This document shows, in pieces, positions 1 through 25,052 of a stretch of 64,000 nt of DNA. The stretch is taken from NCBI RefSeq assembly GCF_011769525.1, contig NZ_CP050440.1:1923501-1987500 (forward strand), read 5' to 3'. Source of the stretch: Tolypothrix sp. PCC 7910. GTDB taxonomy: Bacteria; Cyanobacteriota; Cyanobacteriia; Cyanobacteriales; Nostocaceae. Position 1 is the stretch's first letter, and each line of letters begins with the position of its first letter. The position numbers were made by a program, and so were the translations under genes. A model generated the notes under the pieces. It worked only from the letters and a program-made list of their open reading frames with translations. It ran no database searches and had not been told where the DNA came from.

Positions 1-498
1 CTCTGTCTCTTCCTCCTGCTGTTCCTGTGCTGGTGGTGGTTCCAGTAACATTTGAGCAGTTTGGACAATTGGTTGTGGAGGAAGTTCTTTTACAGGCGGT
101 TCACTACTTTCGAGTATGCTTCCCAAGATGGTGGCATTAATAAAGTAATAAACCGGACTTTCATCTTCAGAATTCAGAATACTGGCACCAAATTCATTGG
201 CTTTAGTATCAAGGTAGCGTTTGGCTTGGGAGCCAGAAAAATTACCCTTGATTGCCAAGTCCATTGGTGTGACTTTACCCTGAGTTTCCAGAACCAGGCG
301 ATTGAAAATAGGATTAACTTGCTGGCACCATTTTTGCCATTGAATACGCTGCCAAGTATTGAAAGCAAAAATCACTAGCATAAAAGCCAGCAAAATTTTC
401 CAGGTGGAAACCAGGAAAATAATCAGAAACGAAATCGGCAAAAGCAGAACGAGAAAAGCCTTCCCGTTGCCTTCTAATGTGTTTTCACTCATGCTCAT
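1..498 (-). CDS. Partial membrane-anchored hypothetical protein
   Basis: This reverse-strand frame is open from an ATG at 498 to the left edge (166 codons, no stop), so the C-terminus lies outside the window. A second in-frame ATG at 492 is an equally good start. Residues about 14-45 form a long hydrophobic stretch (two short membrane helices), followed by a Trp/Gln-rich linker, a small soluble domain (about 60-120) and a Pro/Gln/Glu-rich tail that resembles a flexible linker. I do not recognise the family. The opposite-strand frame over 52-378 is a shadow. The gene is divergent from the RNA array that follows. Confidence 0.6.
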   Translation of the reverse strand, partial: MSMSENTLEGNGKAFLVLLLPISFLIIFLVSTWKILLAFMLVIFAFNTWQRIQWQKWCQQVNPIFNRLVLETQGKVTPMDLAIKGNFSGSQAKRYLDTKANEFGASILNSEDESPVYYFINATILGSILESSEPPVKELPPQPIVQTAQMLLEPPPAQEQQEEETE

Positions 499-856
499 GG
501 CCGCCAAGTGAATTGTTAGGAAAGAAATAATTATTATCTTGGCAAAAATTGTGACATTTTTTTGTATCTTTTGGCAAATTTGTTGGAAAAATATAACATC
601 AGTGATTCTTATACACTGTACATAGCCTCAAGATTCTGCAAAAATTTGAGCTTGAATTGCCCGTATTGCAAAGCTTTTGTCAGGAAAATCTATTTTTGCC
701 AAACTCTTTTCACAGGCAAAACCTATAAATTTAAGTATTAAATAATACTTTTATTCGGCAAACACCCAATTCTCAAAATAAACACTTGACATTTTGTATT
801 ACGCGTACTACATTAAGAATACAAGGCGATGTTCCAAAAGGAGTAAGCTTTCAACC
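499..856. other. Divergent intergenic region before the RNA array
   Basis: AT-rich spacer between the leftward gene and the rightward RNA array. The only feature I can support is a promoter-like pair at 786-814; no coding frame of note. Confidence 0.6.
786..814 (+). promoter_or_regulatory. Candidate promoter for RNA array and rsr
   Basis: A perfect -35 TTGACA (786-791) is followed after 17 bp by TACATT (809-814), a plausible -10. A 7-bp inverted repeat, TTGTATT (794-800) and AATACAA (818-824), brackets the -10 and could be an operator. No other good promoter is obvious before element 1 at 857, so one transcript through the six RNAs into rsr is possible (inference). Confidence 0.45.
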
Positions 857-991
857 GTAGCGGATAGCTCAAATACCAGAGCGCCCACCTTGCCCGCAAG
901 GGCCGACATATCAAGGGTTACCGCAAATAACAGAAAACATCCTTGATGCTAATTCTGGAGGTGCAGGTGAAAATCCTGCTCCGCTACACCA
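857..991 (+). ncRNA. tRNA-like Y RNA, element 1 (permuted)
   Basis: First of six tRNA-shaped RNAs. Eight-bp acceptor GTAGCGGA (857-864) with TCCGCTAC (980-987), then ACCA (988-991). D-stem GCTC/GAGC (867-882) and T-stem GCAGG/CCTGC (963-979), but the D-loop lacks GG and the T-loop is TGAAAAT, so the elbow looks degenerate. A 5-bp anticodon-type stem CAGAA/TTCTG (931-935, 953-957) and 5-nt variable loop follow. The Ro module has hairpin GCCC-GCAA-GGGC (892-903), then CGAC. Its long stem is in reversed strand order: TATCAAGG-GTT (909-919) comes first, and AAC-AT-CCTTGATG (936-948) lies downstream, within the anticodon loop. In the other elements the CCTTG strand comes first. Confidence 0.7.
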
Positions 992-1045
992 AATAAATTT
1001 GAGATTTAATCAAAAATCTCAAATCCAAAATCTAAAATTCTTCAT

Positions 1046-1170
1046 GTGGCGGGTAGCTCAGTGGTAGAGCGCTAAACATCCTTTTTCACCCCTTGCCTGC
1101 AAAGGCCGACGAATGAGGGTTATCGATTGGGTTCGAGAGGTCGCAGGTTCAATTCCTGCCCCGCCACCCA
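1046..1170 (+). ncRNA. tRNA-like Y RNA, element 2
   Basis: Acceptor TGGCGGG (1047-1053) pairs with CCCGCCA (1160-1166); G1046 pairs with C1167, giving a tRNA-His-like extra pair, and CCA (1168-1170) is encoded. D-arm GCTC-AGTGGTA-GAGC (1056-1070) keeps GG; T-arm GCAGG-TTCAATT-CCTGC (1143-1159) is canonical. The Ro module sits after the D-arm: AAC-AT-CCTTTTTC (1075-1087), hairpin GCCT-GCAA-AGGC (1095-1106), CGACG, then GAATGAGG-GTT (1111-1121). Six of the eight pairs of the long stem are canonical, one is a G-U wobble and one a mismatch. Downstream, TCGA-TTGGGT-TCGA could be a shortened anticodon arm (GGG), weakly supported. Confidence 0.75.
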
Positions 1171-1266
1171 AAATCTCATACTAATTTGAAAAAATAATTC
1201 AACAGATATTCGTAGGGGTGGGGTCTATCCGCCTTGACGACAATCCATATAGTTTTAAATTTTCAT

Positions 1267-1393
1267 GTGGTGGGTAGCCAAGTGGTAAGGCGCTTAACAC
1301 CCTTGTTCATCTCTTGCCTGCAAAGGCCGAAGAATTGAGGGTTATCGTTTGCAAAACGAGCATCGCGGGTTCGAGTCCCGCCCCACTACACCA
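1267..1393 (+). ncRNA. tRNA-like Y RNA, element 3 (anticodon GCA)
   Basis: Acceptor GTGGTGGG (1267-1274) pairs with CCCACTAC (1382-1389, one G-U), followed by ACCA (1390-1393). D-arm with GTGGTA and canonical T-arm GCGGG-TTCGAGT-CCCGC (1365-1381). Ro module: CCTTGTTC (1301-1308), GCCT-GCAA-AGGC (1316-1327), CGAAG (1328-1332), GAATTGAGG (1332-1340). A complete 7-nt anticodon loop survives: TCGT-TTGCAAA-ACGA (1345-1359), with T33, anticodon GCA (1351-1353) and A37, as in tRNA-Cys. So the module lies between the D-arm and the anticodon arm of a tRNA that is otherwise intact. Confidence 0.75.
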
Positions 1394-1405
1394 AATTACA
1401 GTTAT

Positions 1406-1616
1406 GTGGCGGATGGCGAAATTGGAAAACGCACTTGACAAAAAACCTTAATTTATCACCTTGCCCGAAAGGGCCGAAGAGTTGAGGGTTATCGTAATCT
1501 AGCAACCGCAAGGTTTTGCAGGTACCCTACCCTTTGGGAACGGCTTCGCCGAACGGGAAGCCGCTTCTCTACGAGACGCTACGCGAATGCGTCTACAAGT
1601 CCTGCTCCGCCACACC
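1406..1616 (+). ncRNA. tRNA-like Y RNA, element 4 (interrupted)
   Basis: Leu-type body: 8-bp acceptor GTGGCGGA (1406-1413) with TCCGCCAC (1606-1613), then ACCT, so CCA is not encoded. D-stem GCG/CGC; a hairpin AACC-GCAA-GGTT (about 1504-1515) looks like a long variable arm. Ro module: CCTTAATTT (1446-1454), GCCC-GAAA-GGGC (1463-1474), CGAAG (1475-1479), GAGTTGAGG (1479-1487); the stem pairs over 9 bp with compensatory changes relative to element 6. The T-arm GCAGG (1518-1522)/CCTGC (1601-1605) is split by a 71-bp repeat insertion inside the loop. It may still fold, since the insert is itself a hairpin. Confidence 0.65.
1523..1593. repeat. Palindromic repeat inserted in a T-loop
   Basis: A 71-bp insert separates the T-stem halves of element 4. 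It is flanked by TAC on both sides (1523-1525 and 1594-1596), so removing one copy restores a 7-nt loop, TACAAGT. The insert contains palindromic blocks such as GGCTTCGCCGAACGGGAAGCC and GAGACGCT, typical of dispersed repeats in these genomes. Confidence 0.6.
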
Positions 1617-1648
1617 TAAACTTAATTTTGAATTTTGAATTGTGACGT

Positions 1649-1790
1649 GGGTGTGTAGCTCAACTGGATAGAGCAATGAACGGGTTAATCACCCATAGTC
1701 CTTGGTTCACAAACTTGCCTGAAAAGGCCGACGAGTCGAGGGTTATCGTCAATTCATCGGTTGTAGGTTCAAATCCTACCTCACCCGCCA
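1649..1790 (+). ncRNA. tRNA-like Y RNA, element 5
   Basis: Acceptor GGGTGTG (1649-1655) pairs with CTCACCC (1780-1786, one T-T mismatch), then GCCA (1787-1790): the only member with a standard 7-bp stem plus discriminator and CCA. D-arm GCTC-AACTGGATA-GAGC and T-arm GTAGG-TTCAAAT-CCTAC (1763-1779) are canonical. An anticodon-type stem ATGAA (1676-1680)/TTCAT (1753-1757) and a 5-nt variable loop (1758-1762) are kept, with the whole insert inside the anticodon loop. The insert has a GGGT/ACCC hairpin (1682-1694), then CCTTGGTTC (1700-1708), GCCT-GAAA-AGGC (1717-1728), CGACG and GAGTCGAGG (1733-1741), a 9-bp stem. Confidence 0.75.
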
Positions 1791-1810
1791 AAATCTAATT
1801 TTGAATTTTG

Positions 1811-1860
1811 CGGAAAGTTGCGTGCGGGGGTTCCCCCCGTTGAGCAAACTTTCCAAGACG
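1811..1860 (+). repeat. Dispersed hairpin repeat A, copy 1
   Basis: A 50-bp hairpin with AAAGTT...AACTTT outer arms and a GGGGG/CCCCC core, lying between elements 5 and 6. Near-identical copies occur at 25311-25358 and, inverted, at 55784-55833. Confidence 0.8.
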
Positions 1861-1876
1861 AATTTTGAATTGTTAT

Positions 1877-2003
1877 GTGGCAGGTAGCTCAGTGGTAGAG
1901 CGCCTAAAACATCCTTGTTCACTCCTTGCCTGCAAAGGCCGAAGAATGAGGGTTATCGCCTTCCAAGCGGGATGTCGCAGGTTCAAATCCTGCCCTGCCA
2001 CCT
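1877..2003 (+). ncRNA. tRNA-like Y RNA, element 6 (anticodon TCC)
   Basis: Acceptor GTGGCAGG (1877-1884) pairs perfectly with CCTGCCAC (1994-2001); CT follows, so CCA is not encoded. D-arm GCTC-AGTGGTA-GAGC and T-arm GCAGG-TTCAAAT-CCTGC (1977-1993) are canonical. Ro module: AAC-AT-CCTTGTTC (1913-1920 for the last part), GCCT-GCAA-AGGC (1928-1939), CGAAG (1940-1944), GAATGAGG-GTT (1944-1954); GCCGAAG fits the bacterial Y RNA motif GNCGAAN(0-1)G as I recall it. A Gly-type anticodon arm remains: CGC-CTTCCAA-GCG (1957-1969), anticodon TCC (1962-1964). It ends 35 bp before rsr. Confidence 0.8.
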
Positions 2004-2012
2004 TTTATTTTT

Positions 2013-2030
2013 GCCCGTAAGGGCCGGGAG
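2013..2030 (+). promoter_or_regulatory. Y-like hairpin in rsr leader
   Basis: GCCC-GTAA-GGGC (2013-2024) followed by CGGGAG repeats the GCCY-GNAA-RGGC-CG signature of the six RNAs, but here it sits in the rsr leader. The ribosome site GGAG (2027-2030, 8 nt before the ATG at 2039) lies directly against it. Rsr binding its own leader would block translation: a testable feedback hypothesis. Confidence 0.5.
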
Positions 2031-2038
2031 TTAAAGCT

Positions 2039-3643
2039 ATGAATTATAATTTCTTTACTAAAAAGAAAACAAATACGCCACAAACTCAGCCTATCCCCGG
2101 ACGGGAAGCAGAGATGGTTAAGGGGCGTTCCGGCGGGTATATGTTTGAGGCTGGTATTTGGAAAATGCTGCGCCGTTGCCTGTTGATTGGGACAGCAAAA
2201 AGCACTTACTATGCTGGCAAACAGGAACTAACAGAAGATTTTGTAGATGTTGTTAAGCAAGCTGTAGCAGAAAATCCTGGGCGGGTTGCAGAAGAAATTC
2301 TCTATGCTAGCGATGGCCGCGCCATTAATAACAGTGCGCCTATCTTGGCTTTAGTGTTGCTATCGATGGGTGAAACCCCAGAAGCGAAAAAGGCATTTGG
2401 TGATATCTTTGGGCAAGTTGTCCGTACTGGTAGCCACTTCTATGAATGGCTGAACTACACTAAATCTCTGCGGGGATTTGGTAAGGTGGTGCGCGAAGCT
2501 GGTAAAACTTGGCTATCGCGTGAAGATGTTAAAGGTTTGGCTTATCAACTGTTGAAATATCAACAGCGTCAGGGCTTTTCTCACCGAGATGCATTACGGT
2601 TGTTTCATGTCAAACCACCTACAGAAACCCACCGCGAATTATTTGAGTGGGTAGTAAAAGGTTGGGAAGATTTACCAGCAGATATCCCCTCAGAAGCCTT
2701 AGCGCAGATTTGGTGGTATGAGTGGTTAAAACGCAACCCCAGCGAAACCCACACTGCGATCGCACAAGGTCGTCTCACACACGAAATGGCTGCACCTTTG
2801 GGTAAAATGGATAAACAAGCTTGGCAGCTACTTTTCCAAGAAATGCCCATCGGTGCAATGCTGCGTAACCTTGGTTCTTTGACAGAACTGGGCGTGTTGC
2901 GAGCTGATGAAAGTGCCAATATTCTGCGAGTAGAAGCAGTTCTTAACAATCAAGAACATCTGCGTAAAGGTCGCATACATCCGATTGATGTTTTGAAAGC
3001 TCTCAAAACCTATCAATCTGGTGGTAGATTAGGGCGCAGCCAGAAAACTTGGGAACCAGTTCCGCGAATTGTAGACATCTTAGAAAAGGCGCTTGAACTA
3101 TCTTTTGATGTGGTGCAACCCACAGGCAAAATTTTCATGCACGCTGTGGATGTTTCTGGCTCTATGTCTTGGGGTGTAGTGGATTCAGTGGGTTTAAGCT
3201 GCTGTGAAATCGCCACTACAATGGCGCTAGTAACAGCAAAAGCTGAGAAAAACTACATGATTCGTGGCTTTGCAACCGAATTTAGAGAACTAGGTATCAC
3301 CGCTAAAGATACTTTTAGTTCTGCACTTCGCAAAGCTAGCAATCAAAACTTTGGTGGTACAGATGCTTCTGTGGCTTACGACTGGATGATTCAGAACAGG
3401 TTTAAAGCAGATGTAGTTTGCTTTTGGACTGACAATGAATCATGGGCTGGTCATAAACATCCCAGTCAAGCATTAGCACAGTATCGCCAGAAGGTGAACC
3501 CCAATGCTAAGGCAGTGTATGTCACCCTTACACCTTACAACATTACCTTAGTAGATCCTCAAGATCCTCTTTCTTGGGATCTAGCAGGATTCGACCCTGG
3601 GACACCTCGCATCATCCAGATGCTAGCTACAGGCGAACTGTAA
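2039..3643 (+). CDS. rsr: Ro60/Rsr, TROVE-domain RNA-binding protein
   Basis: A 534-residue homologue of the Ro60 autoantigen, close to the usual family length. Residues about 20-360 form the TROVE domain (HEAT-like ring that holds Y RNAs and misfolded RNA ends). Residues about 365-534 form a von Willebrand A-like domain with a MIDAS metal site: D371-V-S373-G-S375, and T441-D442 in GGTDAS. GGAG lies 8 nt before the ATG. In other bacteria Rsr with Y RNA tethers or gates polynucleotide phosphorylase and helps rRNA maturation and stress survival; that role here is inferred. The gene sits directly after six tRNA-shaped RNAs carrying Ro-type binding modules, so protein and RNA partners are in one locus. 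No rtcB or pnp is visible nearby. Confidence 0.93.
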   Translation: MNYNFFTKKKTNTPQTQPIPGREAEMVKGRSGGYMFEAGIWKMLRRCLLIGTAKSTYYAGKQELTEDFVDVVKQAVAENPGRVAEEILYASDGRAINNSAPILALVLLSMGETPEAKKAFGDIFGQVVRTGSHFYEWLNYTKSLRGFGKVVREAGKTWLSREDVKGLAYQLLKYQQRQGFSHRDALRLFHVKPPTETHRELFEWVVKGWEDLPADIPSEALAQIWWYEWLKRNPSETHTAIAQGRLTHEMAAPLGKMDKQAWQLLFQEMPIGAMLRNLGSLTELGVLRADESANILRVEAVLNNQEHLRKGRIHPIDVLKALKTYQSGGRLGRSQKTWEPVPRIVDILEKALELSFDVVQPTGKIFMHAVDVSGSMSWGVVDSVGLSCCEIATTMALVTAKAEKNYMIRGFATEFRELGITAKDTFSSALRKASNQNFGGTDASVAYDWMIQNRFKADVVCFWTDNESWAGHKHPSQALAQYRQKVNPNAKAVYVTLTPYNITLVDPQDPLSWDLAGFDPGTPRIIQMLATGEL

Positions 3644-3722
3644 AAAGGCTGAATTGTAAAGTATAAAGGGTGAAATCCAAAAATTTTCATCCTTTATTGA
3701 TTACCTTAAATGCAGTGGTATA

Positions 3723-3762
3723 AAAGAGCCTAGTTTACTAACTTAGGCATCGCTCTTTTTTT
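3723..3762 (+). terminator. Terminator after rsr
   Basis: AAAGAGC (3723-3729) with inner CCTAGT/ACTtAGG pairs with GCTCTTT, followed by a T run. A good intrinsic terminator about 80 bp after the rsr stop. Confidence 0.65.
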
Positions 3763-3867
3763 ATGCATTCTCGCAGAAATAACCCTATTGTCTTGCCTAT
3801 GATGACTAGCAAATAAATATTTTCGCTAGTTAAAGAAGCGTAATGTTGTGGTAGCTTGTTGATAGAT

Positions 3868-3904
3868 TCTCCCGATACAGTCATGACATAACTGTATCGG
3901 GAGA
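3868..3904 (+). promoter_or_regulatory. 14-bp perfect inverted repeat
   Basis: TCTCCCGATACAGT (3868-3881) and its exact complement (3891-3904) flank a 9-nt loop, 45 bp before the start of the receiver gene. No T run follows, so it is more likely an operator or an mRNA leader hairpin than a terminator. I see no second copy in the window. Confidence 0.6.
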
Positions 3905-3949
3905 GTTCCTCCGTAATTGATTAGGGCAACTAAGGAGGTACAGTTGATC

Positions 3950-4399
3950 ATGACAAAAAATAGAGAGGAACTGCATCCTCAAGAAGACACAAAAAATTTT
4001 CCGTCTTTAGATAACTTGCGAGTTTTATTAGTAGATGATAATGAAGATAGCCTGTTTCTCACTACGTTTATTTTAGAAAATCAAGGATTTCAAGTCACAA
4101 CAGCAACATCAGTTACACAAGCTCTAGAGACAATTAAAGGCTCGAAATTTGATATCTTAATTTCTGACATTGCCATGCCAGAAATTGATGGTTATTCGTT
4201 AATTCGTAAAATTAGAAATAGCACCCTTAGCGAACAAAGAGAAATGCCAGCTATAGCGCTAACTGCCCTAAGTTCTGATGAAAGTCGCAGTATGGCTCTA
4301 GCATCGGGATTTCAAAGCTATGTTAATAAACCTGTAGAACCTACTATATTAATAACCGAAATAAGACGTTTAATTAGTAATAATCAAACTACTAAATAA
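3950..4399 (+). CDS. Single-domain response regulator (REC)
   Basis: A CheY-like receiver of 149 residues with no output domain. Conserved features: acidic pair DD in LLVDDNED near residue 33, phosphoacceptor D73 in ISDIAMP, then T/S and K positions (ALTALSS, NKPVEP). The start at 3950 is chosen because AAGGAGG (3932-3938) precedes it; an upstream in-frame ATG at 3917 would place this site inside the gene. The receiver is strikingly like the C-terminal receiver of the neighbouring convergent hybrid kinase (DILISDIAMPEIDGYS against DVLISDIGMPEMDGYA), which suggests duplication and a shared phosphorelay (inference). Confidence 0.88.
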   Translation: MTKNREELHPQEDTKNFPSLDNLRVLLVDDNEDSLFLTTFILENQGFQVTTATSVTQALETIKGSKFDILISDIAMPEIDGYSLIRKIRNSTLSEQREMPAIALTALSSDESRSMALASGFQSYVNKPVEPTILITEIRRLISNNQTTK

Positions 4400-4485
4400 A
4401 TTTTCTTTACATAGAATACGCTGTATGAATGCTCAGATTGCGGCAGCTTTCCCAAAATTTTTAATGTGTTACGACTTACTTTTGA

Positions 4486-4513
4486 GTAGAGACGCGATTA
4501 ATCGCGTCTCTAC
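4486..4513. repeat. GACGCGATTAATCGCGTC palindrome, copy 1
   Basis: A perfect 28-bp palindrome centred on GATTAATC, between two convergent genes, where it can act as a terminator in both directions. It belongs to a dispersed family with copies at 23946, 26445, 34369 and 59122. Confidence 0.75.
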
Positions 4514-4538
4514 AACTTTTGACTTTCGCCTTGCAGTA

Positions 4539-6668
4539 CTATTCCTTATTCTCCATAAGTTTAATAATCCCTGCAACTAATTCTTCTGGGTTAATGGGTT
4601 TAGGTAAATGCATTTGAAATCCTGCTTGGAGTGCTTGCTGTTTATCTTGACTACTAGCGAAAGCAGTAAGTGCGATCGCAGGAATTTTTCCTCCTACTTC
4701 TGCTTTTTTAGTTCTCAGTTGACGCAATAGGGCATAACCATCCATCTCAGGCATTCCAATATCGCTAATTAACACATCTGGCTTTGTCTGTTCGAGAACT
4801 TGTAAAGCAGTTAGTGCGGAAGATGCTGAAATTACTTTAGCCCCATCTTGTTCTAATACAAAAGCTAGGAAATCTCTTGAATCTGCATCATCATCCACAA
4901 GTAGAATTTGCACCCCAGACAGAGACAAAGAATTACTGATTAACGAGGAAGGGCTATTTTGTTCATTCATTAAAGCTGGGTTTCTGTTTTGGATTAGCGG
5001 TAAGCAAACAGTGAATGTAGCCCCTAGATCATTACCAGGGCTGGCTGCTGTGACTGTACCACCATGCATCTCGACTATATTACGAACAATAGCTAGCCCT
5101 AAACCTAATCCACCAAAGTTTCTGGTAGAACTGCTATCGGCTTGGCGGAAGTAATCAAACGCATAGGGTAAGAACTCTGCGCTAATTCCCTTACCTGTAT
5201 CACTAACTATAATTTGAGCATAGCCATCTATTTGGTTTAATTGTACATCTACCTTTCCCCCTGGGGGAGTAAATTTAACGGCGTTGGAAAGTAGATTCCA
5301 AACAACTTGTTGTAAGCGGGTAGAATCGCCCAAAACCATCCCGACATTTGGTGCAAAAATTGTATTGACCTGAATCGACTTAGTTTGTGCAGCTAAGGTT
5401 ACTGTCTCTATTGCAGATAAGACAATAGATTCTAATTTAATACTCTGAGTTTGCAGTGTGAGTTTACCCTGTAAAATGCTAGAAACATCCAGTAAGTCTT
5501 CAATTAATTGCACCTGTAACTTGGCATTGCGTTCGATTGTCTCTAAGGCTGGAGATATTTTTTCTGGTGCTAATCTGCCGCTTTGCAATAACCTAGACCA
5601 ACCAAGGATAGTATTTATAGGAGTTCGTAATTCATGAGAAAGTATAGCTAGAAATTCATCTTTAATTCGATTAGCTGTTTCAGCTTTTGCTCTTGCTGCT
5701 TGTTCCAGTTCCAGCAACCTAGCACGTTCTTGTTGTATTTGTTTTTGTTCTTGAATATCTGTACAAGTGCCAAACCACTTCACTACAATACCTTGTTCAT
5801 CTTTGAGGGGTAAACCTCTAGCTAGTTGCCAACGATAAGTAGCATCAGCAGCTCGTTTAAAGCGGTATTCATTTTCATATAAGGTGCCACTATTGACAGC
5901 ATTTATCCACACATAATATGCATTTTGTACGTCATCTGGATGTAATGCTGCTACCCAACCAGAACCTAAAGACTCTTCAAAAGTCAACCCCGTATATTCA
6001 GACCATTTTTGATTAAAATAATCGCATTCACCTTGAGCATTAGTTGTCCAAACAAGTTGAGGAATTGCCTCAGCTAAATAACGATAACGCTCTTCACTTT
6101 GCCGTAAAATTTCTAAAATACGCTGACGTTCAGTAATTTCCTGCTGTAATTGTTTGTTGGTCTTGGTAATTTCATTAGTGCGAACAGTAACCAATTCTTC
6201 TAAATCATTCTGATATGTTCTGAGTTCTGCTTCTATGCTTAAACGCTCTGTTATTTGTCTTTGTAGCTGTTGATTTGCTTGTTCTAATTGGGCTGGGCTA
6301 GGAAGCGCTAATGCTTGGGGAACTAAAGGTACAAGTTGCAGGGCTGTAAATAAAGATATTATGGCAGTTACAGCTTTAATGAATCCCGATAGCCAATAAG
6401 TTGGATGCCAAAGCGTCCAAATTTCCATGAGGTGAGTAGTGCCACAAGCTACTATAAATCCACTAAATAATAGAAAAATCCAGTGAAAAGGTAAATCCTC
6501 TCGTTTGCTGACGAAATAGAAAAGTGTAGCAGGGATAGAGTAATAAGCTAGGGCTATCAGTGCGTCAGAAATTATGTGTAGCAAAACTAAATCAGTTTGC
6601 CAAAGATAGCAGTGGCCATGTGGAATAAACGGGCCTGAACTAAAAAAAGTGTTCCAAAATTCTGACAT
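4539..6668 (-). CDS. Ethylene-receptor-type hybrid histidine kinase
   Basis: A 709-residue sensor kinase. Residues 1-125 match the membrane ethylene-binding domain of plant ETR1: ISDALIALAYYSIP (D35, Y42, P46) and FIVACGTTHL (C75 and H79, the copper ligands). A coiled coil (about 125-190), one PAS/PAC domain (about 190-310), HisKA with H345 (SHELRTP), an ATPase domain (N box NLLSNAVKF, G boxes DTGKG and GLGLGL) and a C-terminal receiver with D636 follow. Cyanobacterial ethylene receptors are known (Slr1212/Etr1 of Synechocystis), so copper-dependent ethylene sensing is likely. It converges on a lone receiver gene with a closely similar REC domain, a candidate partner. Confidence 0.9.
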   Translation of the reverse strand: MSEFWNTFFSSGPFIPHGHCYLWQTDLVLLHIISDALIALAYYSIPATLFYFVSKREDLPFHWIFLLFSGFIVACGTTHLMEIWTLWHPTYWLSGFIKAVTAIISLFTALQLVPLVPQALALPSPAQLEQANQQLQRQITERLSIEAELRTYQNDLEELVTVRTNEITKTNKQLQQEITERQRILEILRQSEERYRYLAEAIPQLVWTTNAQGECDYFNQKWSEYTGLTFEESLGSGWVAALHPDDVQNAYYVWINAVNSGTLYENEYRFKRAADATYRWQLARGLPLKDEQGIVVKWFGTCTDIQEQKQIQQERARLLELEQAARAKAETANRIKDEFLAILSHELRTPINTILGWSRLLQSGRLAPEKISPALETIERNAKLQVQLIEDLLDVSSILQGKLTLQTQSIKLESIVLSAIETVTLAAQTKSIQVNTIFAPNVGMVLGDSTRLQQVVWNLLSNAVKFTPPGGKVDVQLNQIDGYAQIIVSDTGKGISAEFLPYAFDYFRQADSSSTRNFGGLGLGLAIVRNIVEMHGGTVTAASPGNDLGATFTVCLPLIQNRNPALMNEQNSPSSLISNSLSLSGVQILLVDDDADSRDFLAFVLEQDGAKVISASSALTALQVLEQTKPDVLISDIGMPEMDGYALLRQLRTKKAEVGGKIPAIALTAFASSQDKQQALQAGFQMHLPKPINPEELVAGIIKLMENKE

Positions 6669-7567
6669 ACACCTCGGATTATGAATTATAAATTATCAAT
6701 TAAAGGCTAAAATACTGATGCTACAGCAAAAAATATCATATATGTACAGATATCTTCTGTTTATATTTAATTGCTATTATTTGTTGAAATGAGCGATTTT
6801 TTTATTCCTTATTCTCTATCCTTTATACTTGCTTTGCTCGATGATTCAGTAATTTTATTGCCTTAAGCTAGCTGATCCGAAAAAGCCATAAACATCAAAA
6901 AGTAATTAAATTTATTCATATAGTTTTTTGGGTATGCAGTTCATAATGGTTATTTATCCTGAATAAATGGAACAAATAAACCCCACCAGATGGAAAGATG
7001 GCAGGGTGATTCGTGGGAAAAATGTTAATATTTTTAAATCTTTTTAGACATATATCTAAGTGAAAATATTTTTCCCAGTATTATATCTAAAGTTGCCAAT
7101 AAAGTTAGGATTTTGATATTTTTTGCCTACGCTCAGAGGTAAATGCATCTCACTAGGGAGAAGAATATTTAAAATTTTACTACGAGATAAAAGTTTATAG
7201 TCTTACGAAAAAACCACTGCTGACGTTGCGATCGCTAGCAATAAAAATTGTTACAAAATTTAATAATAGTGAGAGTATTCACAATAGTGCTACCTCATTT
7301 ATAAATCAAATTTAAACAGAGAAAAATTATTGTATAATCTCAAAATTTTTCTATTTCACTAAATGAGCCATTTGCCAAATTTAATACTCTCAGTAAAAGG
7401 AAACATAACTGGGGGAAGAGGCAGATAAAAATAATTTTTCAGTACTCTACTTATTAGTAAATATCTCTATTTAAATGCGTCCACCAACCAGATTTGATTG
7501 TAAGTGAACGTAGAGTATTACTTTGTGGGGATCGAAAAAATTAACAAACGGAAAAGTTTTCAAAGAA
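6669..7567. other. Long AT-rich intergenic region
   Basis: About 900 bp between divergent genes (kinase leftward, permease rightward). No convincing small gene, RNA or strong palindrome was found; one HIP1-like GCGATCGC lies near 7230. It presumably holds both promoters. Confidence 0.5.
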
Positions 7568-8980
7568 ATGGCTTTACAAGGCTCTACTATTAATCAGGGG
7601 AAAACAGTTTCCTATGTAATTTTAATTGCCAGTGCCGCAGCGCTGGGTGGTTTTTTGTTTGGTTATGATACTGCTGTCATTAACGGCGCTGTTTCGGCTC
7701 TTTCAAAAGCATATAATGCTAACAGCGTGATGACAGGCTTTGCAGTATCTTGTGCATTGCTAGGATCTGCTGTAGGGGCTTTTGTCGCAGGGCCGATCGC
7801 AGATCGCTATGGTCGCCTCAAAACGATGCTAGTGGCATCTGTTTTCTTTACCTTAAGTGCGATCGGTTCGGGTATTGCATTTGGGATTTGGGACTTTATT
7901 TTCTGGCGGGCATTAGGTGGTATTGCAGTCGGAATGGCGAGTGTGATTGCACCCGCTTATATTGCAGAAGTTGCACCAGCCCATTTGCGCGGTAGACTTG
8001 GTTCACTGCAACAGCTAGCAATTGTAGTTGGGATTTTCGCAGCCTTAGTTTGTGACTACTTCATAGCTTTAGGTGCAGGTGGATCGGCGGAAGGGATATT
8101 TTGGTTTGGTGTCCCCGCTTGGCGTTGGATGTTTTGGACAGAAGCCCCACCCGCAATTATTTATGGATTTGCTGCACTAGTAATTCCTGAGTCGCCACGT
8201 TATTTGGCAGCACAAGGACGATATACAGAAGCGACCAATGTTTTAAGAAAAGTTCTGGGTGGGAATGTTGAGGCCAAAATTGAAGAGATTCGCCAAACAG
8301 TTCTAGGAGAACGTCGCCCCAAATTCTCTGACTTGCTAAGTCGTAGTGGTGGATTGTTACCCATTGTGTGGATTGGTATGGGGTTGTCTATCCTGCAACA
8401 ATTTGTGGGTATCAATGTAATTTTTTACTACAGCAGCGTTTTGTGGCAGGCAGTCGGATTTTCTGAAAGAGATTCGCTACTAATTACAGTAATTACCGGA
8501 ATCGTCAATATTGTCACAACTCTAATTGCGATCGCCTATGTTGACAAATTTGGTCGCAAACCTTTACTCATGCTAGGTTCTATTGGCATGACTGTGACAT
8601 TGGGTACTTTAACTGTGGTGTTTGCTAACGCAGCTATCGACCCAGCCACAGGTAACCCCACTCTTCCAGGGACATCAGGAATTATTGCCCTTTTAGCAGC
8701 TAACTTATATGTAGTCTTCTTTGGCTTTTCTTGGGGGCCAATTGTTTGGGTGCTGTTAGGCGAAATATTTAATAACAAAATTCGTGCTGCTGCCTTATCT
8801 GTAGCTGCTGCGGTGCAGTGGATTGCGAACTTTCTAGTTTCTACCTCATTTCCGCCTTTACTCAAATCTTTTGGTTTAGGTTCTGCCTATGGACTGTATA
8901 CAATTGCATCGGCAATTTCTATATTTTTCGTTGCTTTTTTGGTGAGGGAAACCAAGGGCAAAGAATTAGAGGAAATGTAA
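7568..8980 (+). CDS. MFS sugar porter (SP family)
   Basis: A 12-helix permease of 470 residues. Family signatures: GFLFGYDTAVI in helix 1, DRYGRLKTM loop motif after helix 2, PESPRYL before the central loop, GINVIFYYS in helix 7, DKFGRKPLL, and ETKGKELEE at the C-terminus. These match the sugar porter family (glucose, fructose or xylose:H+ symporters); the exact sugar cannot be read from the sequence. The ATG at 7568 is preferred to a TTG at 7523, because the family starts shortly before helix 1. Cyanobacterial GlcP glucose permeases are one likely identity. Confidence 0.88.
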   Translation: MALQGSTINQGKTVSYVILIASAAALGGFLFGYDTAVINGAVSALSKAYNANSVMTGFAVSCALLGSAVGAFVAGPIADRYGRLKTMLVASVFFTLSAIGSGIAFGIWDFIFWRALGGIAVGMASVIAPAYIAEVAPAHLRGRLGSLQQLAIVVGIFAALVCDYFIALGAGGSAEGIFWFGVPAWRWMFWTEAPPAIIYGFAALVIPESPRYLAAQGRYTEATNVLRKVLGGNVEAKIEEIRQTVLGERRPKFSDLLSRSGGLLPIVWIGMGLSILQQFVGINVIFYYSSVLWQAVGFSERDSLLITVITGIVNIVTTLIAIAYVDKFGRKPLLMLGSIGMTVTLGTLTVVFANAAIDPATGNPTLPGTSGIIALLAANLYVVFFGFSWGPIVWVLLGEIFNNKIRAAALSVAAAVQWIANFLVSTSFPPLLKSFGLGSAYGLYTIASAISIFFVAFLVRETKGKELEEM

Positions 8981-9045
8981 TGTAAATCCCATAATTTACA
9001 GGCTGCTCAGTCGTAATAATTTGAATAAAGAATGCAACGGATCTT

Positions 9046-9071
9046 TAGGGGTGCAAGGCTGTGCGCCCCTA
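9046..9071 (+). terminator. Hairpin after sugar permease
   Basis: TAGGGGTGCA and TGCGCCCCTA pair over 10 bp around a 6-nt loop. A similar hairpin ends the lipoprotein gene at 31070-31103, so this is also a small repeat family. Confidence 0.55.
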
Positions 9072-9158
9072 CAAATTTATGTGTTGCAAACATGATTTTG
9101 AGATTATTAAGTTACGCCAAATTACCTGAATATGTAATGCGATCGCCATTTTCCTAGT

Positions 9159-11489
9159 TCATCCTTCCCAAGGTGTAGTCGGAGCGTCTGGATCGTCAAT
9201 TGCATCTGTGACATCTTTAATGGGGTTTTGTTCGGTTCTAAAATTACGAGTTGACCCAATCAACTGTTCTACCGCAACCAATGCTTCTGACGCAGATTGA
9301 TAACGCTGCTTGTAATCTTCTAAGACCATTTTACTGAGAATCGCAGCTAAGGCTGGGTTGATAACTGCATGTTCGCGCCATTGCAACTCTCCGTCAGCAT
9401 CTCTTTCTAGTTCGTGGGGGGCGATACCAGTCACGGCCCTAATGCCAATCATCCCGACTGCATAGATGTCGCTACTGTATTGGGGACGACCAAAACATTG
9501 TTCGTTGGGTGCATAACCTTTAGTCCCAATCCCAATGGTAAAAGGGGTTTGTTCTTGATTTTCTGTTTGCAGTGTAGAGACCTCTTTCACAGCACCAAAG
9601 TCAATTAGTACTAATTTCCAATCTGAATGTCGGCGGATAATGTTACTGGGTTTAATATCACGGTGAATTACACTGTTTTGATGCACAAATGCCAATGTTT
9701 GCAATAAATCCCGTAACAGTTCGATAACTGAGGTTTCTAAAAGCGATTGACCTGCAGGTAATTCTTTACTTAAGGGATGACCAACTACAAATTCTTGAAC
9801 TAAATAAAATTCTTCGTCTTGTTCAAAATAAGCTAATAATTGGGGAATTTGGTGATGTTTTCCCAATCTTTCTAAGGTTTGCGCTTCAGAATTAAATAAA
9901 CGTCTGGCTAGTTGCAATCCTGTGGCTTTGGTGTTGGCTGGTTTGAGTTGTTTAACTACACATTGCGGGTGACCTGGACGTTGCAGATCTTCTGCAATGT
10001 AGGTTTCGCTAAATCCTCCAGAACCAAGAACTTTAACAATTCTATAGCGTCCACCGAGGATTTTGCCGGCTACAGCTAAATCGCGTTGTTGCAGTAAATC
10101 TTGTAAGTCTTGTTGTTGGCTGATGATTTCTTGCACAACAGGCGAAGATTTATATTTTTGAAATATATCAACTAATTGCCGCTTTTTAATGCTTTCCCTA
10201 GCGATTTCGGTTCCCAGATAGGATAAGCCGATAAAGGCGATCGCTACCATTGGGACAGTAGTCGGGTAGATTAACTGGTAATGTACAAATAATACGTAGC
10301 TGATGCCTCCCCAAATAGTCGCACAGCCAATGCTGACAATTAATCTACTGATACCACGCTTACGTCTAGCACAGACGATGCCGACACCACCAACTAAACC
10401 CAGCACAAATACACCTTGCAGAGGTGAACTGCTAATTCCTTGAGCGATCGCTTTATCTTCTATTAAAGTGGCGATTGCGTTGGCATGAACTTCTACGCCT
10501 GACATGCGTTCTGGATATAGCCAGTTATTACCCGCCACTACTGGATGATAGTCATTACCTAACTGTGCAGTAGCTCCAATCACTACAATTTTATTTTTGA
10601 AAACCTTTCCCTGCTCTAAATAATTTTTCCAATTTTGGGGGTCAAGAACGTACCAAAAGGGAATTTGCTCAAATGTTCCGGCTGGCCCCCAAAAATGAAT
10701 GCGATCGCCTTTTGGTCGTGAATATTTAATTCTGGCTGCCCTCAGCGCTGCTTCGTCAAAGGAAGACACTTTATCTATTAAGTTATCTTCTGCTAATGAC
10801 TTATTAAACTCACTTGCTAAACGATGAATTTTACCATCAACTTCTAGGGGAAAATTTACTGTACCTATAGATACAGCACCGATACGAAACATTGGCTGAG
10901 GCAGCGTTAATTTATTAAAGGTGCCTTGATGTGACTCAGAGGTTTCATATACAGAAGCTAAGGTAACTTTACTGCCATATTTTTGTAACACTGCTTTGAG
11001 TTGGCGATCGTCGGCGGCACCATAACTACTCTCTGTATCAAAAATTACGTCTACTGCCACAGATTTCGCACCAGCCTGCATCAATTTTCTGATGACATCA
11101 GCATAAGCAGCACGTTTAAATGGAAAAGATTTCAGTGGTTCCAGGTAAGCATACTGTTGTGGATCTGTTTTATAGTACTGTTCAGGGACTGATATAGACT
11201 GACTGTCTATGGCTAAAATCACAATGTCTTCTGGAGGTGCAATCGGCCCGCGCAGTTGAAAAAACGTAGAAAGTGCCTGACTTTCCATCAACTGCACAAT
11301 GCTCAAACCAGAACTACTCAGTAGTGCTGCTCCTATTGCGGAAACACCAGTCAGCAGATGACCAAACCAAGACATTAGTTGGGTATGGTAGGTTAATGCA
11401 GTCGAAGTTGCTTTAGTTGGTTTGCCTAACTGGCTATTGGCAGCAGAGACATATTTTTTAGCTGAGGTAGACGTAGGTTCTTCTGCCAT
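9159..11489 (-). CDS. CHASE2-sensor Ser/Thr protein kinase
   Basis: A 776-residue membrane kinase. After an N-terminal helix (about 40-65) comes a CHASE2 extracellular sensor (about 70-345, starting RGPIAPPEDIVILAIDSQS and ending near GVEVHANAIATLIED), then three membrane helices (about 350-430) and a eukaryotic-type kinase domain (about 480-745). Kinase motifs: glycine loop LGSGGFSET, VKQL lysine, HRDIKPSN catalytic loop, DFGAVKE metal motif, GTKGYAPNEQ in place of APE. All catalytic residues are present, so it should be active. The ligand is unknown. It ends close to the sugar permease gene, with which it converges. Confidence 0.9.
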   Translation of the reverse strand: MAEEPTSTSAKKYVSAANSQLGKPTKATSTALTYHTQLMSWFGHLLTGVSAIGAALLSSSGLSIVQLMESQALSTFFQLRGPIAPPEDIVILAIDSQSISVPEQYYKTDPQQYAYLEPLKSFPFKRAAYADVIRKLMQAGAKSVAVDVIFDTESSYGAADDRQLKAVLQKYGSKVTLASVYETSESHQGTFNKLTLPQPMFRIGAVSIGTVNFPLEVDGKIHRLASEFNKSLAEDNLIDKVSSFDEAALRAARIKYSRPKGDRIHFWGPAGTFEQIPFWYVLDPQNWKNYLEQGKVFKNKIVVIGATAQLGNDYHPVVAGNNWLYPERMSGVEVHANAIATLIEDKAIAQGISSSPLQGVFVLGLVGGVGIVCARRKRGISRLIVSIGCATIWGGISYVLFVHYQLIYPTTVPMVAIAFIGLSYLGTEIARESIKKRQLVDIFQKYKSSPVVQEIISQQQDLQDLLQQRDLAVAGKILGGRYRIVKVLGSGGFSETYIAEDLQRPGHPQCVVKQLKPANTKATGLQLARRLFNSEAQTLERLGKHHQIPQLLAYFEQDEEFYLVQEFVVGHPLSKELPAGQSLLETSVIELLRDLLQTLAFVHQNSVIHRDIKPSNIIRRHSDWKLVLIDFGAVKEVSTLQTENQEQTPFTIGIGTKGYAPNEQCFGRPQYSSDIYAVGMIGIRAVTGIAPHELERDADGELQWREHAVINPALAAILSKMVLEDYKQRYQSASEALVAVEQLIGSTRNFRTEQNPIKDVTDAIDDPDAPTTPWEG

Positions 11490-24904: not shown

Positions 24905-25052
24905 TGCAGCACAAAAAACAATTTATTAAAAAAAATTTTGGTAATTTTTCCGTGTCTTTCCGGATAACCTCTATTTCCCTAGTAGAGAGTAATGGTAGAT
25001 GCACCCTGGTTAAGCCCTGGAGATACTCTCTGGGGCATTTTTTATTTTTGGG

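Follow-up and report, generated by a model that had tools for sequence, protein, structure and literature searches.

Six tandem tRNA-like units (857-2001, plus strand) followed by rsr (2039-3643, plus strand), the gene for a Ro60-related protein of 534 residues, were analyzed in a 64,000-nucleotide stretch of Tolypothrix sp. PCC 7910 (NZ_CP050440.1, positions 1,923,501 to 1,987,500, forward strand), hereafter called the window. On sequence grounds, we read the array and rsr as one transcription unit that makes unpermuted, tRNA-embedded Y RNAs together with Rsr, and we give this reading a probability of about 0.7. Each unit combines a body with acceptor stem, D-arm, and T-arm with an inserted module, which consists of a GNAA hairpin, CGAAG or CGACG, a long stem, and GGTTATCG. 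The rsr product is a full-length homologue of Ro60, the human lupus protein, with the Pfam vWA_Ro60 and TROVE domains, and matches Rsr of D. radiodurans (2NVO) with an E-value of 8e-82. The six units and rsr lie where the initial annotation of this DNA had placed them. The covariance-model search proposed there was run with R1, a model built from 28 units, three of them from the window itself. R1 recovers all six units, with 139, 128, 122, 64, 51, and 34 bits at 1877, 1046, 1267, 1648, 857, and 1406, respectively, and finds no further match in the window at E ≤ 0.01. The general view taken in that annotation, of Y RNA-like modules in tRNA bodies, arrayed beside rsr, with free acceptors and unlike the YrlA RNA of Rfam, is supported by the results below.

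Fold and covariation of the units

An rsr match was found in 67 other genomes, 58 of which contributed an upstream stretch to the parsing, together with the window; the nine omitted had fragments or weak matches (G030, G087, G028, G005, G058, G093, G132, G126, and G116). This yielded 157 complete units in 53 of the 59 rsr loci, so that such units also precede rsr in other cyanobacteria. L084, L094, and L106-L109 hold no complete unit, and units lacking a complete acceptor, such as unit 4 of the window, are excluded from the 157.

For the standard class, 28 of 30 non-redundant units were aligned over 138 columns, the two with long variable regions being dropped (alignment A2). In this alignment, 94.0% of the pair cells form standard pairs, and both-side changes occur at 22 of the 36 pairs, with 136 such cells compared to 35.8 after shuffling and 12-27 after sliding. 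The covariation of hairpin and long stem noticed in the window is thus reproduced across loci. Run without a given structure, RNAalifold recovers the acceptor, D, T, hairpin, and long-stem helices; what it misses are the two outer pairs of the anticodon stem and another three pairs, each of them single. The 5' part of the standard unit comprises an 8-bp acceptor strand, the D-arm, two anticodon-stem pairs, strand b of the long stem (A[TC]CCTTGTTC), and a linker of about 7 nt; the 3' part continues with the hairpin, CGAAG or CGACG, strand a (GAATGAGGGT), TAT, three anticodon-stem pairs, a loop of about 7 nt, a variable region, the T-arm, and the acceptor. The module therefore forms a bulge on the anticodon stem, inserted after tRNA position 28 and before position 29, as in window units 2, 3, and 6, and the anticodon loop remains. 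The inner three anticodon-stem pairs form the weakest helix, pairing in 83% of cells. Among the 147 units with a called hairpin, the loop is GNRA in 118, and the word after the hairpin is CGAAG in 52, CGACG in 42, and another in the rest.

Unit 1 of the window represents a second topology, in which the partner strand of the long stem lies 3' of the hairpin and not 5', with CGACA as the linker. This unit-1 type occurs in 33 of the 53 loci, being the first parsed unit in 32, and has the order hairpin, CGACA or similar, strand a, GTTATCG, loop, strand b. An alignment of 26 of the 33, from which near-identical ones were dropped (A1), shows pairing in 96.4% of cells and both-side changes at 18 of 30 pairs (44 cells compared to 8.3 shuffled and 6-13 slid), and RNAalifold again finds most of the same helices without a given structure. 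The same helix is thus retained with its strands exchanged and the tRNA body joined at its other end. Of 124 standard units, 113 have the GG of the D-loop together with the T[TG]C of the T-loop, and 22 of the 33 unit-1-type units have neither, a pattern that would follow if the standard class had kept the tRNA elbow and much of the unit-1 type had lost it. Comparison across loci and covariation thus establish the unit fold and its conservation. A decaying tRNA cluster that had hitched to rsr, its tRNA part having no role, would account for the interruption of unit 4 and for the variable unit numbers; it is made extremely unlikely by the compensatory changes that the two alignments (28 and 26 sequences) show throughout the helices of the acceptor, the D-arm, the T-arm, and the module.

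All six units of the window lie on the plus strand, and five of them have an 8-bp acceptor stem. Unit 1 (857-987; R1 51.1 bits) has a tRNA-like body with the reversed module (hairpin-CGACA-ATCAAGG ... CCTTGAT), followed by ACCA at 988-991. Unit 2 (1046-1167; 128.4 bits) has the 8-bp acceptor GTGGCGGG/CCCGCCAC with CCA at 1168-1170, and unit 3 (1267-1389; 121.7 bits) has an 8-bp acceptor followed by ACCA and a Cys-like body with the loop TTGCAAA. Unit 4 (1406-1613; 34.3 bits) combines a Leu-like, class II body with the module and is probably damaged, a repeat of about 73 nt (1524-1596) splitting its T-loop. Unit 5 (1649-1787; 64.3 bits) has a tRNA-like body, a 7-bp acceptor with one mismatch, the module plus an extra hairpin in the anticodon loop, and CCA at 1788-1790. 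Unit 6 (1877-2001; 139.4 bits) has an 8-bp acceptor, the D-arm, the module, an anticodon arm CGC-CTTCCAA-GCG, and the T-arm; its putative Rsr-binding module (1911-1953) is made of strand b ATCCTTGTTC (1911-1920), a linker, the hairpin GCCT-GCAA-AGGC (1928-1939), CGAA, and strand a GAATGAGGGT (1944-1953). The uniform design first ascribed to the six units hence holds for the module, present in every one, but not for the reversed strand order with CGACA in unit 1 or the split T-loop of unit 4. Five units from four other loci (L053, L061, L063 twice, and L078) carry inserts similar to the unit 4 repeat at this position of the T-loop, and the genome of Tolypothrix sp. PCC 7910 holds one full copy and eight partial matches elsewhere.

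tRNA likeness and the register of the units

Of 85 units belonging to the commonest class, 84 are called as tRNAs by ARAGORN once the module is cut out, nine of the 84 without a clear anticodon; the 85 were taken from the 157 units, the Arg-like, Leu-like, and unit-1 types being excluded. Left uncut, none of the 157 is called, 117 tRNA calls appear once introns are allowed, and no tRNA is called by ARAGORN in the window. The Rfam tRNA model passes its cut-off, with a large insert, for unit 5 (48.0 bits) and, under laxer filters, for unit 2 (47.6 bits). Such calls could point to functional intron-containing tRNAs, from which the module would be removed, perhaps with ligation by RtcB, to give a decoding tRNA and a free Y hairpin. 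All 30 genomes that have an rsr match carry RtcB, compared to 64 of 214 others, a difference confounded by kinship; within family and order, the figures (counted from the table) are 22 of 22 versus 34 of 53. This co-occurrence, with the same confounding, is also counted in favor of our own reading. The anticodons, however, drift: for the last units of 40 loci, ARAGORN gives 17 different calls, some with loops of the wrong size, which counts against decoding. The acceptors are mostly of 8 bp, and two thirds of the unit-1-type units (22 of 33) lack both loop motifs of the elbow. We regard this reading as very improbable. Intron-containing tRNA genes and bacterial tRNA clusters share the tRNA body and the tandem order with the units but differ in that the insert of the units is conserved and tied to rsr, the anticodons are not kept, and the acceptors are mostly of 8 bp. 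Two long tRNA gene clusters are present in the genome of Tolypothrix sp. PCC 7910, on contig C1 at about 7.301 Mb and on contig C2 at about 22 kb.

Comparison with the 83 tRNAs of the same genome suggests a clear parent for two window units only, unit 4 being Leu-like (60/74) and unit 3 Cys-like (57/69); no clear parent was found among them for the other four. The proposal that the array is built on different tRNA bodies is thus borne out only in part. The further suggestion that each unit addresses a different tRNA-handling partner finds no direct support, anticodons drifting between the last units of different loci. At the unit ends, 116 of the 153 anchored units have G:C as their outermost acceptor pair, and among 100 internal units CCA directly follows the 8-bp stem in 31 and NCCA in 36. 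A G(-1):C73 pair is a known mark of tRNA-His, and the resemblance makes aminoacylation worth considering, which is not to claim it.

Because the units stand in tandem, a different cutting phase is possible in principle. The register was therefore examined with a symmetric acceptor test, in which the best partner of the strand after the T-arm was sought in the same way upstream of two D-arms, that of its own unit and that of the following unit, the distant-rsr loci L106-L109 being excluded. The same unit offers the better partner in 99 of 119 comparisons and the next unit in 9, with 11 ties; the mean number of Watson-Crick acceptor pairs, out of 8, is 6.87 within the unit (170 units) compared to 4.55 with the next unit (119). 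Two earlier comparisons were set aside: one (own 86, next 1, tie 13) whose units had been preselected for at least 7 of 8 same-unit pairs, and one in which just 51 units were anchored, many of them wrongly (own 10, next 2, tie 2).

These counts bear on the view that the real RNAs are ordinary YrlA spanning the unit junctions, with their ends in the module and the inter-unit spacer closing the acceptor. The Rfam YrlA model (RF02553, with an Rfam cut-off of 69 bits) does match, by position, over unit junctions in genomes G003 and G059, with 50.6, 37.7, 35.8, and 35.6 bits, all below the cut-off. Of the six T-arms on a viral contig with such RNAs (L208), three form more pairs with the following D-arm (6, 6, and 5 of 8 versus 4, 4, and 2); one ties at 3, two are not comparable, and the folds show closed acceptors. 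Tandem plain tRNA-Asn genes (L111), however, score alike with RF02553, at 44 bits, so the junction matches give no support and were rejected as evidence. The preference for pairing within the unit, the spacers of 7 to 433 nt between parsed units, and the loci with a single parsed unit (L083, L085, L087, L099, and L100) also speak against RNAs that span junctions, which we consider quite unlikely. Model scores alone do not decide the register, because R1 and RF02553 both match two viral loci in different registers: L208 scores 46.2 and 44.4 bits with R1 in the unit register and 41.2 and 39.7 bits with RF02553 in the YrlA register, and the Gordonia phage Cashline (L211) scores 40.9 and 42.2 bits, respectively, with a tied pair count of 5 of 8. 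On the L208 contig (IMG/VR, 63.9 kb), the tandem YrlA-type RNAs are accompanied by a distant rsr, a tRNA, a tmRNA, and an open reading frame (1759-3066) that looks like a CCA-adding enzyme by eye.

Our reading of the units as unpermuted, tRNA-embedded Y RNAs can be set against the known systems. The bacterial Y RNA 6CU1 is described as superposing on tRNA with a circular permutation (Bohdan and colleagues, PMC11472068), and YrlA as a PNPase-binding, tRNA-like domain joined to a large stem that is formed by the 5' and 3' ends and binds Rsr (PMC8394870). The earlier statement that YrlA lacks a full acceptor is right in substance, because the known Y RNA is a circularly permuted tRNA. YrlA (RF02553; 6CU1) shares with the units the neighboring rsr, the D-arm, the T-arm, an acceptor-like arm, and a long stem on the anticodon side. 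The RF02553 consensus, however, runs stem, T-arm, closed acceptor hairpin, D-arm, stem, so that YrlA ends in the Rsr stem, its acceptor is closed, and its T-arm precedes the D-arm, whereas the cyanobacterial units, by pairing, end at the acceptor, often with CCA, have a GNRA-capped Rsr stem, follow the order D, module, T, and stand several to a locus in most loci. By eye, Cashline has the YrlA order, with a closed CACCC-TTCG-GGGTG acceptor, and like the units it has a GGTTACC strand as well as a linker of 7 nt, which in Cashline precedes the 3' part of the terminal stem. The Deinococcus Rsr-Y RNA-PNPase complex (RYPER), whose tethering role is taken from reviews (PMC8394870, PMC4726728), has a protein partner of the same family, as the 2NVO match indicates, and a tethering role like the one proposed here; the PNPase contact belongs to RYPER and extends to the units by analogy only. 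The units also resemble tmRNA, in which a tRNA acceptor and T-arm are joined to a non-tRNA domain, but differ in having a complete D-arm; in the 10 kb searched, the Rfam tmRNA model gives a T-arm-only match, and no search for a tag reading frame or pseudoknots was made.

Given that both the YrlA model score and the YrlA topology differ, we file the units as a variant of bacterial Y RNA and not as YrlA. We infer that the homology of units and YrlA embraces the entire RNA and is more than a likeness of single parts, and the units probably work like YrlA. They are a real, conserved family, of which Rfam (release 15) at its cut-offs covers only some units, as tRNA. No paper on cyanobacterial Y RNAs was found among the literature matches listed; the primary YrlA papers lay outside the search and may list such RNAs.

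Distribution and tie to rsr

In a phylum sample of 244 genomes, 30 have an rsr match, 22 of them with at least 69% identity over nearly the whole protein. R1 matches of at least 57 bits are found in all 22 genomes with a close rsr and in one more (G138, rsr of 39% identity), compared to none of the 214 without rsr; the 57-bit cut-off was chosen after the scores were seen, and the screen used the stricter Infernal filters with 14 candidates scored per genome. In all 23 genomes, the match lies on the rsr contig, within about 2.6 kb of the gene. Matches of 51-56 bits and 73-74 nt in seventeen genomes were taken as plain tRNAs by their length. A family sample has rsr matches in 50 of 99 genomes, some of them fragments. 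Among named genomes, 77 of 79 loci (29/29 and 48/50) match at E ≤ 1e-5, with a best score of at least 60 bits in each; a further named locus, L148, with only 233 nt upstream, is not among the 79. This distribution ties the units to rsr. A six-member array is not special in this setting, contrary to the first impression, since relatives range from a single parsed unit to 11 upstream matches in Prochloron didemni (L200). Picosynechococcus sp. PCC 7002 has three units on plasmid pAQ7; the plasmid table consulted lists no RNA genes of any kind.

Several observations weigh against our reading. RF02553 stays under its cut-off in all eight genomes tested, the window's included, so that the Rfam Y RNA search first suggested for the units reached 69 bits in none, and at E ≤ 1 it has no match in positions 1-10000 of the window; where it does match, it scores the tandem plain tRNAs mentioned above alike. 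The consensus of the Y RNA motif is GNCGAA(N)G beside a stem, from which the CGACG after 42 of 147 hairpins departs. Neither CCA nor NCCA follows the last unit in 45 of 53 loci, one or the other being present in 8. Seven other rsr genomes have no unit of at least 57 bits (G135, G118, G211, the fragment in G028, and the weak matches G132, G126, and G116), and two named loci, L157 and L193, have no match above threshold. Folding of single sequences is weak, with a z-score of -0.77 for unit 5 (42 of 200 shuffles as good) and -1.93 for unit 2 (9 of 200); as it is unconvincing alone, the case rests on the comparison of sequences.

Other features were seen around these loci. Many relatives have a further, mostly weak unit match that starts close to the stop codon of rsr or no more than about 215 nt away (for example, 5679-5789 in both L128 and L130); in the window, R1 has no match there. 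A contig of the cyanobacterial assembly G211 (C31, L259), possibly of phage origin, has a distant rsr (32% identity) beside tRNA genes and, by eye, a terminase-like reading frame. In a distant genome of the phylum (L107), two plain hairpins, GGGCCGGAG...GGGTTATC, precede rsr with no surrounding tRNA part by eye, and RtcB is nearby. Elsewhere in the window, at 24993-25044, Rfam identifies nitrogen stress-induced RNA 1 (NsiR1) with 51.9 bits.

Transcript, leader hairpin, and proposed role

A promoter-like element, TTGACA-17 nt-TACATT, lies upstream of the whole array on the plus strand (786-814). The pattern scan of positions 600-3900 gives two such sites (786-814 and 1234-1261) compared to 5.6 in shuffled sequences, and is thus no evidence by itself. 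By a loose pattern, with some poor matches, 42 of the 53 loci have a promoter-like element upstream of their first parsed unit. The region 780-825 holds a block that recurs in relatives, roughly TTGACA-TAATACATATACTACATTAATAATACAAG, and likely contains a regulator site. No terminator-like site is found in 600-3900, compared to 3.3 in shuffles. Taken together, the recurring promoter block and the lack of a terminator-like site make it likely that the array and rsr share one transcript.

The hairpin GCCC-GTAA-GGGC (2013-2024), which resembles the module hairpin, stands directly before rsr, followed by C and the ribosome-binding site GGGAG (2026-2030), all on the plus strand. This leader type was defined as a hairpin of four pairs that has CC on its 5' side and is followed by N-GG or N-GAG. 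Within the 48 nt that precede rsr, 49 of 55 cyanobacterial loci have one (L106-L109, with distant rsr, being excluded), compared to 20 of 2200 mononucleotide shuffles, a figure that serves as a guide only because the pattern was set after the sequences had been seen. The loops are mostly GCAA, GTAA, and GAAA, matching those of the units, and the hairpin is retained in L084 and L094, which have no complete parsed unit. Among the six misses, four have an imperfect hairpin by eye (L073, L076, L098, and L099), one has it further upstream (L065), and in one none is seen (L101). We read the leader hairpin as a mimic of the module through which Rsr would autoregulate: Rsr free of Y RNA could bind the leader, lowering its own translation.

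From these elements we propose how the locus may work. Each unit keeps a tRNA body, made of acceptor, D-arm, T-arm, and, in the commonest class, an anticodon arm, and the putative Rsr-binding helix is built into the anticodon arm in the form of a closed hairpin. The precursor would be cut into several short RNAs by the tRNA enzymes (RNase P, 3' processing, and CCA addition where CCA is not encoded), and the outermost G:C pair, the 8-bp acceptor, the drifting anticodons, and the bulky insert would bar these from decoding. Rsr may bind the module through the CGAAG/long-stem/GGTTATCG element and so protect the RNA, and the tRNA-shaped face, located about where YrlA has it, could recruit or compete for tRNA-binding proteins; PNPase is the best guess for the tethered protein, by analogy with RYPER. 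Multiple units per locus might set the dose and give slightly different faces, and the conserved unit classes leave room for specialization.

Published expression data concern Chlorogloeopsis fritschii PCC 9212, in which the transcript of a TROVE protein is up "dramatically" on erythromycin, "for unknown reasons" (PMC6424891). In a far-red co-culture, apparently of the same strain, judging from the place in the text, TROVE and RtcB genes are among the top induced, with log2 values of 4.5 and 3.5 (PMC11423583). Its relative PCC 6912 has the array (L182). Induction of an rsr-type gene by erythromycin would also suit a role as decoys, in which the units mimic tRNA so as to sequester tRNA-cutting nucleases or tRNA enzymes when translation is stressed, and Rsr only stabilizes them. 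The strong tRNA mimicry fits this as well, and YrlA has been discussed as a possible competitive inhibitor of an anticodon nuclease (PMC7790460). No nuclease gene tied to the locus turned up, however, in searches of which none was aimed at one, and we hold the decoy role, which our main reading would permit, to be unlikely.

The proposed Y RNA role of the units admits a bolder, tentative extension that we consider distinctly less probable than not: natural circular permutation through tandem arrays might link Y RNAs and tRNAs. Cyanobacteria would then hold the unpermuted form, an intact tRNA whose anticodon stem has acquired the Rsr helix as an outgrowth, and the widespread YrlA would be the same periodic array in the other phase, as in viral arrays such as L208. 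In view of the free acceptors, some with CCA, and the G(-1):C pair, some units may be CCA-tailed or even aminoacylated, and Rsr would control its own translation through the leader mimic. If the reading proposed here is true, the existence of an unpermuted tRNA-Y RNA alongside permuted YrlA would suggest a plausible way in which bacterial Y RNAs came to mimic tRNA, and a direction of change that can be tested. The free acceptor ends would make RNase P processing, CCA addition, and aminoacylation direct questions for a Ro60 RNA, and the leader mimic of rsr would predict autoregulation.

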